A stretch of 64,000 nt of DNA from a virus. The notes beneath the pieces are model-generated. The model saw nothing but the letters and a program-made list of their open reading frames with translations. It was not told the origin of the DNA and searched no databases. A program made the translations under genes and the position numbers. Shown in pieces: positions 2,477-52,463 of the stretch (the first letter of the stretch is position 1; every line of letters begins with the position of its first letter). The stretch is taken from positions 248,001 to 312,000 of IMG/VR virus record IMGVR_UViG_3300020154_000003, one strand, 5' to 3'.

Positions 2477-3556
2477 TTATAAATCGTCATCACTATTATT
2501 AATAAATGGCTTACACCATTTTGGTCTCACAAGAGGCCAAATGTTTCTGCTAATGTCCTTCCCATCCATAAGACTGAACACCAGCTTGGAGTTAGTGCAA
2601 TTCTTAAACACATATTCTGCCATTTCCTTTCTTGAAGAAAAGTTTTGTAACATGACTTCACGGTGTTCCAACATAGCACGTTCGTGGACTTCATTGAATC
2701 GATCCGTAAGTTCTTGCACAGTCTTTTTGATGAACTGGTCAAATTCATCAGGTGTTCTATCCAATAATTCATCGAATGATTTTCCATCTCTCAAATGCTC
2801 CCATACAATCACATTCGAAACGTTAGTTACGATGCTATGCAAACGGCAGTATTCTTCGAACTTCATTTTCACTCTGAATCCGTTGATGAACTTAGCAATA
2901 TATCCTTCACGGTTGGAGTCCTGCACATCCCTTACTTTTTCAAGGTCAGTAAACCCATCGTATCTTTTAACAACTTCAAAACCGATCTCTTCCAAAGGCA
3001 AGTCATTTCCAGTGGTATTGTCAATTACTGCCAACAATACCAGATCATCCTTCCCAAAGTAATCGCAGACAATCCTGTTTTCAGGATAGATGATTTCGAA
3101 CAGATATGTCGCACCTTTGTTCAACTTCTCAAAAGTGTGCTGGTATCTTTCGTACAGAACCTTGTTTGCGTGTTTAGCCTGATCGCTCTCAAAGCTTCCT
3201 CTGGAAGCGATATAAGGCTTGCCATTCAACCAATACAAAATACCCAACGAACCGTCCATCTTTTCGTATAGTTCGAAAGGAAGTGCAGGAATCTGCTCTG
3301 GTGTGTGTTCCTCATAATTGAAAAACTTGATGAATGGTCTAGCGACAATATTCATCTCACCATCAAGGATTAGTCCCCGTGTAAGCAAAGTGATCTCGTT
3401 CCACAATCTTTCGAATTGGGCCTTACGGGTATAGTTGTAGATGTACAGGTCTGCGTTAGGGTGTTTTTGCACCATGACGTATTCCTGAGCCAACATTTCC
3501 TTAAGTAATTCCTTATTCATATTATATACAGCTAGAAACTCACCCGATTTTGCCAT
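2477..3556 (-). CDS. rnlA: RNA ligase, T4 Rnl1 type
   Basis: An ATP-dependent RNA ligase that would reseal broken RNA, in T4 typically tRNA cut by host anticodon nucleases. From the chosen ATG (359 aa; T4 Rnl1 has 374) the nucleotidyltransferase motifs appear in order: motif I K99 in EKMDGS, RG at 119-120, motif III FEIIYP at 153-158, motif IV EGYI at 217-220 and motif V KMKFEEY near 230. The N-terminal block with NYTRKAQ and ARPFIKFFN matches the Rnl1 adenylylation-domain entry. The open frame extends three codons further to a TTG at 3565, and a second ATG at 3520 (MNKELLKEM) is an equally good start. Neighbours are short unknown proteins. Other possible RNA-repair enzymes occur further right (15884, 19700, 21473, 23622). 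Confidence 0.9.
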   Translation of the reverse strand: MAKSGEFLAVYNMNKELLKEMLAQEYVMVQKHPNADLYIYNYTRKAQFERLWNEITLLTRGLILDGEMNIVARPFIKFFNYEEHTPEQIPALPFELYEKMDGSLGILYWLNGKPYIASRGSFESDQAKHANKVLYERYQHTFEKLNKGATYLFEIIYPENRIVCDYFGKDDLVLLAVIDNTTGNDLPLEEIGFEVVKRYDGFTDLEKVRDVQDSNREGYIAKFINGFRVKMKFEEYCRLHSIVTNVSNVIVWEHLRDGKSFDELLDRTPDEFDQFIKKTVQELTDRFNEVHERAMLEHREVMLQNFSSRKEMAEYVFKNCTNSKLVFSLMDGKDISRNIWPLVRPKWCKPFINNSDDDL

Positions 3557-3568
3557 CGGGGTCAAAAT

Positions 3569-12305: not shown

Positions 12306-12702
12306 AATCTAAAAAATCTGCGCAATACATTGATATGATGGCGTTATAGTAAACCTGACCTGCTACACTTAACCCACCATTATCGAGCCAATAAGCATCA
12401 CTATCATACAAAACCTGAACCTCAGACAAAAAGTTTTTCCCAAGTTCATAAATTTCAGATGGAAGGTATGTGGAGATGTCCTCCATTTCTAACTTGTCAT
12501 TAACTAAACGCCTTAAATTTTTGACACTACCAGTTAATTCTTCAGGTTTGTGTTCATCACTGATATAACGACCAATCGCACATTTAAGTCCGTGTTCGTT
12601 TTTATATTTTCTATCAGAATTTCGTCTATGTGGGTGTGTTCCATAAAAATAGACCATATCGTTTAAAAAACGTGTTCTTGCTTCCTGCAATGTTTCCATC
12701 AT
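12289..12702 (-). CDS. hypothetical protein with CAIGRYI motif
   Basis: 137 residues. Contains YFYGTHPHRRNSDRK (about 18-32) and KCAIGRYISDEH (about 40-51), a combination seen in uncharacterised phage proteins. Mostly helical afterwards. It overlaps the nucleotidyltransferase gene by four bases. Function unknown. Confidence 0.65.
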   Translation of the reverse strand: MMETLQEARTRFLNDMVYFYGTHPHRRNSDRKYKNEHGLKCAIGRYISDEHKPEELTGSVKNLRRLVNDKLEMEDISTYLPSEIYELGKNFLSEVQVLYDSDAYWLDNGGLSVAGQVYYNAIISMYCADFLDYEYNF

Positions 12703-13307
12703 ATTTCCTTTGGAGCCACAACTCTGAACCGAGTTAGCAAATTATTGTAGCGATTTTTATAGGTGAGAAACAACTCACTCCAATCATATTTATTCATTAT
12801 TTCCTCGAACAATAGATTACAACATCCATAGTCGTATATCTTGCCCTTCTCTGCCAATTGAATACCATATTCGATGATCCGCATGGCATGGAATAAACTC
12901 TTTCTTCCAAGGCTTAAATCATAGTCCTTTTCGACAGTCAATTTCTTTTTGGCCTTAACCCAACTGTTGGATGATTTTGCTCGAAGGGAATATCTTAATT
13001 TAGTATTGTCTATATTAAAAGAGAATTTTCTTTTCTCTAACAAGATGAATTGAGAATCCAGAAACTGACATTCAATAGCAGATATTTCATGCTCATCAAG
13101 CCGTTGCTGATGTTCCTCCGGGGTGTAAAAATTGATGTTAATTAGATTGTCGGAAAACTGCTTATTGACCTTATTTGTGGTCACTACAATGAAATCGTAA
13201 TCCGACTGCTTTGTGATATTCCCATACACCCTTGACCCGTATACGTAGACTGCAACCACCTCTTTTTCAGATAATTTGGCTTTGGTCAGGATGGTGTGTA
13301 AATTCAT
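12699..13307 (-). CDS. nucleotidyltransferase (MNT/KNTase-like)
   Basis: 202 residues from the ATG at 13307. The polymerase-beta type signature is clear: GSRVYG (about 25-30), then SDYDF (36-40) giving the metal-binding D-x-D, as in minimal nucleotidyltransferases. A third carboxylate may be E79 in AIECQFL. The rest is helical. Such enzymes transfer NMP to proteins, RNA or small molecules; here the acceptor is unknown. A GTG two codons upstream (13313) overlaps the promoter -10 and cannot be used from it. The predicted transcript start coincides with the ATG, so the mRNA is probably leaderless. It heads the unit 13307-11776. Confidence 0.75.
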   Translation of the reverse strand: MNLHTILTKAKLSEKEVVAVYVYGSRVYGNITKQSDYDFIVVTTNKVNKQFSDNLININFYTPEEHQQRLDEHEISAIECQFLDSQFILLEKRKFSFNIDNTKLRYSLRAKSSNSWVKAKKKLTVEKDYDLSLGRKSLFHAMRIIEYGIQLAEKGKIYDYGCCNLLFEEIMNKYDWSELFLTYKNRYNNLLTRFRVVAPKEI

Positions 13308-13312
13308 ACCCA

Positions 13313-13343
13313 CTTTTACGTAAAACTTGGGAAATTGTTTTAT
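13313..13343 (-). promoter_or_regulatory. early-type promoter for the nucleotidyltransferase unit
   Basis: Leftward sense ATAAAAC, 16 bases, CGTAAAAG. The ATG at 13307 is five bases after the -10 box. The -35 overlaps the end of the preceding gene (stop at 13340). Confidence 0.55.
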
Positions 13344-15883: not shown

Positions 15884-16270
15884 TTATTTTGTTACTGCTT
15901 TACTGCCATCGAAATATCCTTCCGTGGTATCGATGAAAATAGGCGTTTTGAACATTTCAATCTTATCTGGATTTTCATCAAAAGCATTATTGCTCTTTAC
16001 TGGTGAAACTCCTTCCGCAGTTGACAATGTTATGTGTGGGAATTTGTTCTTTGATTTAGGATTTTCCACTAATAAAGCGTCTACCTGATCGGTTGTTATT
16101 CTACCAATGATTGGTAAGTTTACCTTGTTACCTAATTCAATATTATCACCATTCTTAGGTCTGAACTCTATCGTTGAGTGGTGATAAAACGTGTTAGGGT
16201 GTACGGGAGGAAACATACCCTTTAACTTAGAGACGTTGTCTACAAATAATGCGTGATAATTGATGTTCAT
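15884..16270 (-). CDS. 2H phosphoesterase-like protein (LigT/2'-5' RNA ligase fold)
   Basis: 128 residues with two H-x-T motifs: H31-S-T33 within FYHHSTIEF and H79-I-T81 within FPHITLS. Two such tetrapeptides about 50-70 residues apart define the 2H phosphoesterase superfamily, which hydrolyses 2',3'-cyclic or other cyclic phosphodiesters (tRNA-repair CPDases, ThpR, and the phage anti-CBASS enzyme Acb1). Substrate cannot be read from sequence; overall length and motif spacing differ from T4 Acb1. It sits next to a deoxyribosyltransferase-like gene (9 bases away) and a Nudix gene, which supports nucleotide or RNA-end processing. Confidence 0.6.
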   Translation of the reverse strand: MNINYHALFVDNVSKLKGMFPPVHPNTFYHHSTIEFRPKNGDNIELGNKVNLPIIGRITTDQVDALLVENPKSKNKFPHITLSTAEGVSPVKSNNAFDENPDKIEMFKTPIFIDTTEGYFDGSKAVTK

Positions 16271-16279
16271 ATAATTAAT

Positions 16280-16771
16280 CTAACCGTATAATCTTTCTTC
16301 CCAAATTACTCTCATATGCTTGCTGAATTCCTCAAAAGTTTCATAGAACGGAACGTTGTAATAATTACAAGTAAATTCAACATTACCTCTCCTATAAAAT
16401 CCCTCAGGACAGCAAACAAATAATTTATTTTCTTTGGCAGTTAGCCCAAGTTCAGCGAGTGTTATTGGTGATTTTGTATTAGGGTCAAAATACATGACCA
16501 CATAATCTGCCAATTCAAGACCTGATAATTCCCATCCAACTTGGTAGGCAAACTCAGGATTATTTACTGATTGCTCCCATGACGAGTCCCAATCCAGTCT
16601 TCTAGGATTTAGAAAATTTATCTCTAAATCTTCGTACTGAGTGACAAACTTATCTTGCCAATTTTCAGCTTTTCCCATCTCAATAGAACCAGCAAGAAAT
16701 ACGGTTATACCTCCATTTCTATTCATTCTGGAGGTAAAATCGTTCTTATTTGTTGGTCTAATAACTACCAT
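16280..16771 (-). CDS. nucleoside 2-deoxyribosyltransferase-like protein
   Basis: 163 residues. ITVFLAGSIEMG (about 22-33), NFLNPRR, WELSGLELADYVVMYFDPNTKSPITLAELGL (about 81-111) match the Nuc_deoxyri_tr2 family, with the N-terminal strand-GSI loop and the acidic residue before the TLAELG helix in place. Classical members exchange the base of deoxynucleosides; relatives cleave NAD-like or other N-glycosidic bonds. It overlaps the Nudix stop by one base (TAATG). Likely role: salvage or remodelling of nucleotides during infection, or neutralising a nucleotide signal. Confidence 0.75.
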   Translation of the reverse strand: MVVIRPTNKNDFTSRMNRNGGITVFLAGSIEMGKAENWQDKFVTQYEDLEINFLNPRRLDWDSSWEQSVNNPEFAYQVGWELSGLELADYVVMYFDPNTKSPITLAELGLTAKENKLFVCCPEGFYRRGNVEFTCNYYNVPFYETFEEFSKHMRVIWEERLYG

Positions 16772-17205
16772 TATTGTTTCTCTACATACTTGTCATGTTC
16801 CATATAATCGATTGTCACAGGCATGAAACCTGAGTCCAATGCCATCGCAACTAACCATTTGATGTTTGGCAATACTTCACCTCTATATAAGCTATCAACC
16901 CATAAAGTAACAACTTCTTCTTCAGTAGTTGTTTGAAGTGCTTCAAGATCACCAAACGCCACGTAACAGAACACATCAAAATTGCTATTTTTCATTAGCG
17001 CAAAATATCGCCATTCATTATGAATATGACCAGTTTCTTCTCTGAATTCCCTGATCATGGCTTCGTGTGGTGCTTCACCTTCTTCAATCTTACCTCCGAT
17101 ACCATTCAATTTACCTGCCTGCCAATCAGGCTTTGTTTTCTTAATTAAGGCTACCCTTTTCTTATCTTCTGAAAAATAGAACCCTAAAACATATTGTTTT
17201 GCCAT
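16771..17205 (-). CDS. Nudix hydrolase
   Basis: 144 residues with a complete Nudix box: GGKIEEGEAPHEAMIREF followed by REETGH (about residues 37-60), fitting G-x5-E-x7-REUxEExGU. The residues before it (DWQAGKLNGIG) are typical of NTP- or ADP-ribose-hydrolysing members. It would hydrolyse a nucleoside diphosphate linked to another group. Translationally coupled to the deoxyribosyltransferase-like gene, suggesting a joint pathway. Substrate not deducible. Confidence 0.85.
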   Translation of the reverse strand: MAKQYVLGFYFSEDKKRVALIKKTKPDWQAGKLNGIGGKIEEGEAPHEAMIREFREETGHIHNEWRYFALMKNSNFDVFCYVAFGDLEALQTTTEEEVVTLWVDSLYRGEVLPNIKWLVAMALDSGFMPVTIDYMEHDKYVEKQ

Positions 17206-21472: not shown

Positions 21473-21928
21473 TTACTTAATAAATTTTAAAATTAATTCT
21501 TTAACATTTTCTCCGCACAGACCGTCAATGGAATCACAAAGAACAAAGTTTGGTACTTTTTTAGATTTTAAATTTAAGTCATCAAAGGCAACCCATTTTT
21601 CAGGTTTATGTTCATTTAAATAAGTGCTAATTTGGTGTATCCTATTTATTTCAAGATCAAACATTTTCACATTTTCATTTGAGATCATACCAACGGGCTT
21701 TTTTATTATCCCATTCCATTCGAAAATCTCCCCTATTTGTTCCAATGTCCAATACAATCGCCAATCTGAGGATAGAACCAGATCAGCATCAGTTTCTCGT
21801 AAAATTTCGTTAAGAACTTCAACACATTTAGGATTCATGCGGTAGATACTACCCCACTTTGTTTCTTCGCGCTTCCCACACTCATCAGTTGCCAGTGGGC
21901 CATCAATATCTACAAAAATTAATTTCAT
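21473..21928 (-). CDS. HAD-superfamily phosphatase-like (HAD_SAK type)
   Basis: 151 residues. Motif I IFVDIDGPLAT (D6-x-D8), motif II SSDWR (about 53-57), motif IV with AFDD (about 114-117). The SSDWR-type second motif and the short length fit the HAD domains first described in Swiss Army Knife RNA-repair proteins. Such enzymes remove phosphate, possibly from nucleic-acid ends. A second, longer HAD of the same type is encoded at 23622. Confidence 0.75.
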   Translation of the reverse strand: MKLIFVDIDGPLATDECGKREETKWGSIYRMNPKCVEVLNEILRETDADLVLSSDWRLYWTLEQIGEIFEWNGIIKKPVGMISNENVKMFDLEINRIHQISTYLNEHKPEKWVAFDDLNLKSKKVPNFVLCDSIDGLCGENVKELILKFIK

Positions 21929-22156: not shown

Positions 22157-22461
22157 CTTATGCTGGCAAAGTCAATTGTCTGAACCAATGCCTTTAGTAA
22201 AGCCTTATCGAATTCTTTCCTGAATACCACAGGAATTTCATTTTCGTATAAGTTAGGTTGCTCTCCGGGTTTGATGGCACATAAGTGAATAGTAGTACAC
22301 CATTCTTCATCAAATCGGTAGCCATCCCAACGACCGCTTTCAAATTCAACAATTTCATAGTTCAAAGCTTTCAAAAAAGTGAGTACTGATTCTAGGCTCA
22401 GAATATCAAAACGATATGTCTCACGGTTTATGTTTTTTTTGCTGGTTTCTTGGGTTTTCAT
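22153..22461 (-). CDS. hypothetical protein
   Basis: 102 residues, alternating strands and helices; ends with a helix EFDKALLKALVQTIDFAS. It overlaps both neighbours by four bases (ATGA), so it is embedded in a coupled row with the macro-like gene. No family recognised. Confidence 0.6.
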   Translation of the reverse strand: MKTQETSKKNINRETYRFDILSLESVLTFLKALNYEIVEFESGRWDGYRFDEEWCTTIHLCAIKPGEQPNLYENEIPVVFRKEFDKALLKALVQTIDFASIR

Positions 22462-22856
22462 ACTAAGTAGTTTAAGAATTTTTGGGGTAAGAATACATTT
22501 TCCAATTGAACGGCATCCTTAAATAAGGGTGCTACATCCTTGTGTTTTAAGCCAGCTAGGCCAGTGCCAATTTCGGTCACGAGAAACTTGTACTTTGGGT
22601 TGTTTTTTGCAAATTTTATAAACCTCTCGACATGGGGCTGTATTTGGTCTATACGCAACGTTTGAATGTGGCGATCCTTGGTAGGTATACCGTAAGTACG
22701 TCCCATTAAACCTGAAGCCTGACCATATACGGCACCCCATTTTCTTTGAGCAGTCAAAGCAGCACCACGGCTATGTGCGCCACGTAGATTAGAACCGAAA
22801 ACGAATATTTCATCGTCCTCTAAATTTACTATATGTTCAGGGGTAACTCGATTCAT
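22458..22856 (-). CDS. macro-like domain protein (A1S_2505 type)
   Basis: 132 residues. EIFVFGSNLRGAHSRGAALTA (split at about 16-36 here), KWGAVYGQASGLMG and YGIPTKD (about 55-61) are the conserved blocks of the phage A1S_2505 macro-like family, and TEIGTGLAG (about 94-102) supplies the second glycine loop. Macro domains bind ADP-ribose and related nucleotides and may hydrolyse them. In phages this could reverse ADP-ribosylation or bind a nucleotide signal. It overlaps the bactofilin-like gene by four bases. Confidence 0.75.
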   Translation of the reverse strand: MNRVTPEHIVNLEDDEIFVFGSNLRGAHSRGAALTAQRKWGAVYGQASGLMGRTYGIPTKDRHIQTLRIDQIQPHVERFIKFAKNNPKYKFLVTEIGTGLAGLKHKDVAPLFKDAVQLENVFLPQKFLNYLV

Positions 22857-23257: not shown

Positions 23258-23635
23258 TCATTTTATAATAATGTCGAATTCGAATCTGTGATCATAAAAA
23301 TTATCTCTGACATGCTCAACTTCTAAGTTTCTTACTTCCGATTCAAATGATTCCTTGAAGTACGCCATGTAGTCAATTCCTTTTTTTATGTCCAAATAGT
23401 TGTTTGTTTCCTTAAGGTAACTTATCTGGTCATTAATTTTGCGAATAATGTCTCGTATTGTGTTGTAATTCCGTCTTGCTTTAATGATTTCACAAATACC
23501 ATTATCTTTAAGATAAAGTACATACTCTGAATTAATCAGAACCGAAAACTCTACCTTGCTTCGTATCATAGACGTATTACGAAATGATTTATGAATCTCA
23601 TTCTCGTGTATATATGAAACTTTAATCTCCTTCAC
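23258..23635 (-). CDS. hypothetical protein
   Basis: 125 residues with an N-terminal beta part (KVEFSVLINSEYVLYL) and a long helix (about 55-90, TIRDIIRKINDQISYLKET), ending in strands. Overlaps the HAD gene upstream by 14 bases. No family recognised. Confidence 0.6.
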   Translation of the reverse strand: MKEIKVSYIHENEIHKSFRNTSMIRSKVEFSVLINSEYVLYLKDNGICEIIKARRNYNTIRDIIRKINDQISYLKETNNYLDIKKGIDYMAYFKESFESEVRNLEVEHVRDNFYDHRFEFDIIIK

Positions 23636-24242
23636 GACTCAATATTTTAAGTGCCTTCAAATATTGTTTTTCACCAAATCCCGTTCTGTTTTTGCAGTGT
23701 ACAAAATTCTTTCTTTGTTCATAAAGCATGTCCGAATCGTCATCGAGTATGACATAAGTTGAAAGAGTACACTTCGCTTTTTCCTTACGCACATATTCCC
23801 CATCCCACTGCCAATGTGCAAAATTATGTTTGATACGATAATACCACTCAATTTCACAACCTCTCGGTATTGTGACACCACGATCTGATTTCAATCTGAT
23901 CAATTGGTTCATGTTGCTGCCGTACCGACTAGATTCGGCATTAACTCTCAAATCCCCTCTGAAGTCTGGTGTAATTCCAATAACTTCTCCTTCCATTTTT
24001 CTCAACTTCCACATCCCTCTCATTGCCTTGAGACCTGCATGTCGCCATGTGGAAGACACCACTATTTTAGCACCTGTTTCCCGTATCAATCGGTTTAACA
24101 ATTCCTGAGCAATTGGGTCAAATAATTGACCGTATTTGTCACGGGGAACTTGCTTCTTATGTTTTTTAAACCAAGTTTTATAGTAGCGTTGTGAATTCAG
24201 AACACCATCAATATCTAAGAAAATTATTTTAATTTTCTCCAC
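23622..24242 (-). CDS. HAD-superfamily protein (HAD_SAK_2 type)
   Basis: 206 residues. Motif I IIFLDIDGVLNS (D10-x-D12), motif II VVSSTWRH (about 61-68), motif IV YVILDDDSDML (about 163-173). A basic insert (about 72-100) distinguishes it from 21473. It belongs to the HAD group found in RNA-repair polyproteins. Probable phosphatase or 5'-nucleotidase-like activity on an RNA or nucleotide end. Three bases separate it from the small gene upstream. Confidence 0.8.
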   Translation of the reverse strand: MEKIKIIFLDIDGVLNSQRYYKTWFKKHKKQVPRDKYGQLFDPIAQELLNRLIRETGAKIVVSSTWRHAGLKAMRGMWKLRKMEGEVIGITPDFRGDLRVNAESSRYGSNMNQLIRLKSDRGVTIPRGCEIEWYYRIKHNFAHWQWDGEYVRKEKAKCTLSTYVILDDDSDMLYEQRKNFVHCKNRTGFGEKQYLKALKILSREGD

Positions 24243-46334: not shown

Positions 46335-47291
46335 TTATTTTTTACCCAAATATTCTATTCTATTTACATTCTTCGCAGTTTGAAATCCTTCTCTATACCA
46401 TTCAAGCATCTGTCTTTTATCAAACATTAAACTATTATTTGTTATTTTTCTTGGTAACCAAAATACTCTGACTTTGATTCCTTTTTCTTCCGCATACTCA
46501 TCAATTTTTTTAATCAAATCTCCGTCTTTAAACTCAATATCATAACGCATAGCATCGACAGTTCTTTCAACGTTGTGTATAAAATCTTTTACGAATGGTC
46601 TTTGTTTAAATGTTTTTGGTCTCTCTCTATGCATAATAATATCAACTTCATCGCAACCAGAATCCAACACTTTATAGAATGGTGCTAATTCCGTTAAACC
46701 ACCATCTGTCCACTCACCAATATACCATCTTTGATCTTCAACATCGTACCAAGGCTTTCTATGTAATGACATAACAAAAGGAGCATTAGCTGAACACCAA
46801 ACCCAATCTTTAAAATCTTCAAAACTTTGAGTGAGCGAAGAAAAGAATTCAATCTTTGATGGATAGGCATTTATATTTACAGTCCCAACAATCACTTCCT
46901 TTTGTAATTTTTTCAACAAATTGAAATGCTCTTCAGTGAAAAATTTATCTATGGTCTTTCGCAACTGATTTGTCGTTGCCAATGTGTTCAACGTTTCCTT
47001 TCTACCGAAAAATCTCATCATCAAAACATAAAGAATTGCCATCTCATTCAATTCACCATTTTTTTTAAATGTTTTTGGTCTAAGAAATTTTCTATCGAAG
47101 ATGTCATCTTGAACCACTGATGTATATGCTTGTCTTAATACTTTAAACTCTTTAAGAGCAACCAGTGAACTCATCAATGCACCAGTTGAGATACCAGCAA
47201 CAATGTCATAATCGTTATTAAGTGCCGCTAAAGTCCCTGCACCATATGCGCCCATTGCGCCACCTCCAGAAATGATTAAACCTTTTTTCAT
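46335..47291 (-). CDS. patatin-like phospholipase
   Basis: 318 residues. Oxyanion loop GGGAMGAYGAG (9-19), nucleophile elbow GISTG (33-37; Ser35) and the catalytic DGG (196-198) of the Ser-Asp dyad are all present, so an active lipid acylhydrolase is likely. It would cut acyl chains from phospholipids. It lies 8 bases after the large fibre gene, suggesting late expression or co-packaging. Patatin-like enzymes are better known as bacterial defence effectors (CapV), so a phage copy is notable. It has no signal peptide. Confidence 0.85.
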   Translation of the reverse strand: MKKGLIISGGGAMGAYGAGTLAALNNDYDIVAGISTGALMSSLVALKEFKVLRQAYTSVVQDDIFDRKFLRPKTFKKNGELNEMAILYVLMMRFFGRKETLNTLATTNQLRKTIDKFFTEEHFNLLKKLQKEVIVGTVNINAYPSKIEFFSSLTQSFEDFKDWVWCSANAPFVMSLHRKPWYDVEDQRWYIGEWTDGGLTELAPFYKVLDSGCDEVDIIMHRERPKTFKQRPFVKDFIHNVERTVDAMRYDIEFKDGDLIKKIDEYAEEKGIKVRVFWLPRKITNNSLMFDKRQMLEWYREGFQTAKNVNRIEYLGKK

Positions 47292-52055: not shown

Positions 52056-52463
52056 ATGAACTTAATTAAACACAAAACACCCCTATTTGACCTGCTTTTG
52101 AGCGATATTTTTAATGAAAATGAAACTGTCGCCAAATCATTTGAAACAGTTTATACGCCACTCGGTGACGTACTGGAAACTGACGAGCAATATCTCATAG
52201 AATTGATGCTTCCGGGCTTTACTAAAAGCGATGTGAAAATCGACCTTCAAGATAATGTGCTTACAGTAAGTGGTGAGAGAAAAAAAGGTGAAGTGAAATA
52301 TAATAGACAGGAAAGCTATTATGGTAAAATCAAAAAACTATACACCTTACCAAATCATATTAGTGTTGACGACATTAAAGCTAAATTCGAGAACGGTGTT
52401 TTAAAACTCACTATTCCGAAAGACGTTAAAAAGCTGCAAGCAAATTCAATTGAGATCGAATAA
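52056..52463 (+). CDS. Hsp20 small heat-shock protein
   Basis: 135 residues: the alpha-crystallin domain (about 39-128) with PGFTKSDVKIDLQDNVLTVSGERK (split; about 68-92), a Y-x-x-x-I-K-x-Y patch and the G-V-L-x-L-x-I-P-K (about 115-124) consensus, ending in the C-terminal I-x-I (IEIE). It holds unfolded proteins in solution and is encoded by many T4-like phages, possibly to help virion assembly. A single rightward gene with its own terminator. Upstream carries two CATTTATA boxes (about 52010 and 52031) close to the late word. Confidence 0.92.
   Translation: MNLIKHKTPLFDLLLSDIFNENETVAKSFETVYTPLGDVLETDEQYLIELMLPGFTKSDVKIDLQDNVLTVSGERKKGEVKYNRQESYYGKIKKLYTLPNHISVDDIKAKFENGVLKLTIPKDVKKLQANSIEIE

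Follow-up and report, generated by a model that had tools for sequence, protein, structure and literature searches.

A 128-residue protein encoded by a large phage is almost certainly a 2H phosphoesterase of the branch that holds CNPase and the cyclic phosphodiesterase domain (CPD) of fungal tRNA ligases. Its open reading frame (ORF), confirmed at 15884-16270 on the minus strand with an ATG start, lies in the window analyzed here, a stretch of 64,000 nucleotides covering positions 248,001 to 312,000 of the 366,038-base IMG/VR virus record IMGVR_UViG_3300020154_000003. We consider it likely that the protein acts as a 2',3'-cyclic phosphodiesterase in minimal, stand-alone form, preparing cut tRNAs for a phage-encoded repair line.

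A first-pass annotation of the sequence had noted two H-x-T motifs, at H31 and H79, and both are indeed present: H31-S-T33 (16172..16180, minus strand), the counterpart of H230-C-T232 in CNPase, and H79-I-T81 (16028..16036, minus strand), the counterpart of CNPase H309-V-T311. Each is followed by a hydrophobic residue (I and L, respectively), as expected in the 2H superfamily. Two H-x-[TS]-hydrophobic motifs spaced 30-110 residues apart in a protein of under 300 residues are, however, found in 5 of the 534 ORFs of this phage (~1%), and the motif pair was therefore dropped as proof in its own right. Because the pair is weak by itself, homologues were sought, and at the level of sequence comparison their existence lifts it above chance. 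The best Pfam match of the protein is PF08302, the tRNA-ligase phosphodiesterase domain (tRNA_lig_CPD), at 15.4 bits against a cut-off of 23; across the whole 366-kb phage record, the 128-residue gene is the only place that this profile matches. No other Pfam model, including PF02834, PF13563, and the Acb1 profile PF23474, was matched at E values up to 1. NCBIfam and PADLOC returned no match for the protein, and a phmmer search against the PDB returned a single weak and unrelated one.

Single-sequence searches of a phage collection and of viral contigs with the 128-residue protein recovered no relatives. The entry point to the family was instead a protein of an Alteromonas plasmid (31% identical), through which homologues were reached in Salicola phage SCTP-2, Sinorhizobium phage Phosso, Agrobacterium phage Atu_ph07, Synechococcus phage B23, Aphanizomenon phage CL131, and the crAss-like Kolpuevirus; later searches added cultured crAss-like phages, Bacteroides phages DAC19/20/22, and Lak megaphages. 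A pair of DNA patterns covering the second motif only, run on IMG/VR, recovered 38 viral stretches, in 36 of which the first H-x-T motif is also in frame; loci L034 and L049, in which it is absent, were rejected as chance pattern matches. A strict-pattern scan of cellular genome contigs returned one locus. The carriers comprise jumbo phages, crAss-like phages, Lak megaphages, cyanophages, one plasmid, and one bacterial metagenome-assembled genome (MAG), and every annotated relative is labelled "hypothetical protein". The MAG is that of a Candidatus Doudnabacteria, in which a 2H domain 52% identical to the phage protein stands behind a long N-terminal part (L064:3192-4622, plus strand); that part resembles a MYG1-type DHH exonuclease by eye and is without a Pfam match.

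The relatives also make the profile assignment firmer. PF08302 scores above its cut-off, exactly at the homologous gene, in B23, CL131, and Kolpuevirus, and also does so in five further loci (L037, L028, L039, L057, and L031) and in DAC19_96 and PhiCrAssBcn1_64. It is the top Pfam match of all stand-alone relatives and excised domains that were scanned, the exceptions being L038 and L054, fusions scanned whole. In an alignment of 30 sequences, H31, T33, P78, H79, T81, P90, and N94 are invariant and S93 nearly so; in a second, more diverse alignment (n=17), H31, T33, H79, P90, S93, and N94 are invariant; H31, T33, H79, and P90 are constant throughout. The nearest relative, on a 371-kb contig (L048), is 65% identical, and saturated silent change between the two genes (proportion of silent differences, pS, 0.89) set against a nonsynonymous proportion (pN) of 0.24 indicates purifying selection.

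An AlphaFold2 model built from the 30-sequence alignment is predicted with high confidence (mean predicted local distance difference test 97, predicted template modelling score 0.90) and has the 2H fold. The first-pass annotation had proposed a 2H phosphoesterase and had named a model without the 2H cleft, or homologues without conserved histidines, as findings that would speak against it; the fold is there, and both histidines are invariant. Foldseek against the PDB places CNPase at the top. In VIA-align comparisons, the CNPase catalytic domain reaches Z 12.9 at 2.2 Å over 122 of the 128 residues, while 6u05, a kinase/CPD structure of a fungal tRNA ligase, scores Z 11.8 over 120 residues; next come Appr>p CPDase (6.3), the rotavirus VP3 phosphodiesterase (6.1), Acb1 (6.0), and the Thermus 2H protein TT0787 (5.6). 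Each of the 50 listed structural matches is either a 2H protein or has a 2H domain within it, and a family's absence from that list does not count against it. In a viral structure library, the top named match is a marseillevirus RNA ligase. Comparing the family profile with solved structures likewise ranks CNPase first and in register at the second motif, at a non-significant E of ~0.2. The suggestion that the protein might form a new branch of the superfamily is therefore replaced by a clear placement within the CNPase/fungal CPD branch, with scores of 12.9 and 11.8 against ~6 for the other 2H branches.

The region after the second motif bears on function. In CNPase, the beta5-alpha7 loop is unique within the 2H family and coordinates the nucleophilic water, other 2H enzymes lack helix alpha7, and the nucleotide is bound by Tyr168, Phe235, and Val321 (PMC4643303). 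The model of the phage protein has a strand at residues 79-84 bearing the second motif, then a loop and a helix at residues 90-99, which begins with P90-V-K-S-N94 (15989..16003, minus strand), the counterpart of the CNPase loop and helix (PMC4643303) by alignment and model; the three nucleotide-binding residues align with Y5, F36, and V91. From the CNPase-type loop and helix together with these aligned substrate residues, we infer by homology a 2',3'-cyclic phosphodiesterase yielding a 2'-phosphate, and cyclic phosphodiesterase activity appears quite probable. H31 and H79 would serve as the acid/base pair while T33 and T81 hold the phosphate, and, by analogy with CNPase, Y5, F36, and the V91 loop would bind the ribose and the base. 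In fungi and animals, enzymes of this branch open the cyclic phosphate at the ends of cut RNA. The substrate here would arise when a metal-independent nuclease cuts an RNA and the 5' half ends in a 2',3'-cyclic phosphate, and opening of the ring would most likely give a 2'-phosphate and a free 3'-OH. Broken tRNAs, those of the host as well as the 54 of the phage, may in this way be made ready for PNKP or a HAD phosphatase, a 5' kinase, a nucleotidyltransferase, and an RNA ligase. T4 Pnkp can remove 2'-phosphates too, which would fit such a pathway.

The genome holds candidates for the steps that would follow. Within the window, all on the minus strand, are a T4 Rnl1-type RNA ligase (2477..3565; PF09511, E=1.1e-16) that may be the sealing enzyme, a Pol-beta-type nucleotidyltransferase (12699..13313; PF18765/PF01909, E ~1e-8), and two Swiss-army-knife HAD phosphatases (21473..21928 and 23622..24242; PF18143, HAD_SAK_2, E=5.8e-22 and 5.6e-23). 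The phage also encodes two further RNA ligases, PNKP, and RlaP, and the 54 predicted tRNA genes lie at record positions ~89,100-158,000 and ~362,000. Two of these tRNAs have a CTA anticodon; ARAGORN labels them Pyl, and they are perhaps amber suppressors. Among the relatives, an Rnl1-type ligase is present in all four of those exceeding 240 kb; the family gene overlaps a CCA-adding-type polymerase gene in L028, lies ~1.7 kb from a PNK3P phosphatase (PNK 3'-phosphatase) in CL131, and lies ~1.1 kb from a TROVE/Ro60 protein in PhiCrAssBcn1. In L038 (9117-10040, minus strand), a fusion joins the 2H domain to a HAD 5'-nucleotidase-like domain and may be a one-chain enzyme for the healing of RNA 3' ends. 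A different neighborhood is seen in the near relatives L035, L041, L042, and L056, where the 2H gene adjoins a 170-residue ORF (one copy scanned, with no Pfam or PHROG match), or in L042 and L056 an ORF of similar size; in L041, a SNF2-type helicase gene stands on the other side.

Several observations weigh against assigning the protein to tRNA repair. Large phages commonly have RNA ligases, and the co-occurrence of ligase and 2H gene is accordingly weak evidence. Three smaller carriers, CL131, Kolpuevirus, and the Alteromonas plasmid, show no RNA ligase by either profile, so the protein cannot in every case serve a ligase of the same element. The operon partners of the 2H gene in this phage are a Nudix hydrolase and a nucleoside 2-deoxyribosyltransferase-like (NDT-like) protein rather than a ligase, and no Tpt1/KptA, which would remove the 2'-phosphate left at a sealed junction, was found in the phage or in seven other records searched (eight in total). 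CNPase Arg307 has no arginine counterpart, the aligned residue being F77. We also know of no enzyme assay for this compact family. Given ligases in the large carriers and none in the smaller ones, an RNA- or tRNA-repair role is on balance likely for this phage and is not proven family-wide.

The operon partners are themselves the basis for another explanation, in which the protein would belong to NAD or ADP-ribose metabolism. The Nudix gene (16771..17205, minus strand; PF00293, E=1.3e-12) lies in a compact minus-strand run and is followed by the NDT-like gene (16280..16771, minus strand; PF15891, E=1.7e-32), a 9-base gap, the 2H gene, and a 337-residue ORF. This tight order of Nudix, NDT-like, and 2H genes is retained in L048, with one-base overlaps and a Nudix copy 58% identical, and a previous account describes both 2H-Nudix linkage in jumbo phages and a tie to NAD/ADP-ribose networks (PMC9503650). 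In the motif scan, however, the trio was not seen in any relative other than L048; Appr>p CPDase, at Z 6.3, is structurally distant by comparison with CNPase at 12.9; and the same failure to find KptA that troubles the tRNA-repair assignment also counts here. We regard this explanation as unlikely, though it is the least unlikely of the alternatives. Less probable again is RNA trimming or 2'-5' phosphodiesterase activity, whether by a Usb1-like exonuclease or through degradation of 2'-5' oligoadenylates. Such roles have been proposed for the 2H domains of polyvalent proteins, which were argued to do other things than repair because they are not seen with RNA ligases (PMC5512222); some relatives of the phage protein do lie inside large multi-domain phage proteins, such as the helicase-containing L031, and the structural matches include the rotavirus VP3 phosphodiesterase (Z 6.1). 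In both fold and sequence, nonetheless, the nearest proteins are CNPase and the CPD of tRNA ligases, and the second motif is followed by a loop and helix of CNPase type.

The first-pass annotation had offered two functions, action on RNA ends or on cyclic nucleotides, and the former is the better of the two. An anti-CBASS (cyclic oligonucleotide-based antiphage signaling system) nuclease like Acb1, which would cleave cyclic oligonucleotide signals at their 3',5' bonds, shares with the protein its superfamily, its two HxT motifs, a phage origin, and a similar length, and is among the structural matches (Z 6.0). That score is nevertheless far under that of CNPase, PADLOC gives no support, and allowing E values as high as 1 yields no match to the Acb1 Pfam model, which a second protein encoded by this phage does touch; we consider an anti-CBASS function very improbable. 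The other protein, of 1405 residues, lies outside the window at record 323214-327431 (minus strand; L017:13214-17431) and combines an ADP-ribosyltransferase-like domain, a second 2H domain of LigT/Acb1 type that touches both the Acb1 and the LigT models, and a CCA-adding-type polymerase. The earlier remark that the 128-residue protein matches neither Acb1 nor LigT agrees with these results: LigT/ThpR of the 2'-5' RNA ligase superfamily are likewise 2H enzymes, but their profiles, PF02834 and PF13563, are unmatched, and Thermus TT0787 reaches only Z 5.6.

The catalytic domain of vertebrate myelin CNPase shares with the phage protein its full-length fold, both HxT motifs, the helix after the second motif, and the counterparts of Tyr168, Phe235, and Val321; it has ~210 residues rather than 128, a His-His spacing of 79 rather than 48 residues, and an identity of ~16%, and the phage protein stands alone, with neither the N-terminal kinase-like domain nor a counterpart of Arg307. 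The CPD of the fungal tRNA ligase Trl1 (PF08302, 6u05) is alike in fold (Z 11.8), in the HxT...PxxSN profile match, and in its RNA-end context; the phage protein is, by contrast, unfused, kinase and ligase being separate phage genes, covers about half of the profile length, and itself scores under the Pfam cut-off. Mammalian CNPase has been used to complement a yeast strain whose Trl1 CPD is dead (cited in PMC5434554). Jumbo-phage 2H phosphoesterases have already been published with a proposed part in RNA repair, the removal of 2',3'-cyclic ends ahead of RNA ligases (PMC7824862, PMC9503650), and resemble the present protein in carrier type, superfamily, and proposed role; in the available portions of those accounts (PMC7824862, PMC9503650), the compact CNPase-type family is not singled out. 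What is described here is that compact, unannotated, and widespread family of the CNPase/CPD branch.

The tRNA-repair assignment provides a concrete and testable function for proteins that occur in very diverse phages, several of which have been grown on laboratory Bacteroides strains, and that are labelled "hypothetical protein" wherever annotated. It also suggests that a CNPase-type enzyme may work at a very small size. The enzyme would cover the stage after host defences have cleaved a tRNA and before a phage RNA ligase seals it, a stage that T4 handles with its kinase-phosphatase alone. A broader and speculative synthesis, which we think improbable as a whole, would take the family to be the minimal CNPase/CPD form, present alike in giant, crAss-like, Lak, and cyanobacterial phages, with a conflict enzyme of this sort, from a phage or a bacterium, as a possible ancestor of the eukaryotic tRNA-ligase CPD and myelin CNPase, and with ligase-less phages countering RNA-cleaving defences without ligation. 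If this were true, the cyclic end might in ligase-less phages be removed as a signal, for example, or opened for exonucleases.

Three other genes of the window may be mentioned. A protein of PHROG 2072, function unassigned, is encoded at 22458-22856 (minus strand) and carries an FGSNLxGxHxxGAA motif. By eye, the product of 46335-47291 (minus strand) looks like a patatin-type phospholipase, with GGGAMGAYGAG and GISTG motifs, and that of 52056-52463 (plus strand) like an Hsp20-type small heat-shock protein.
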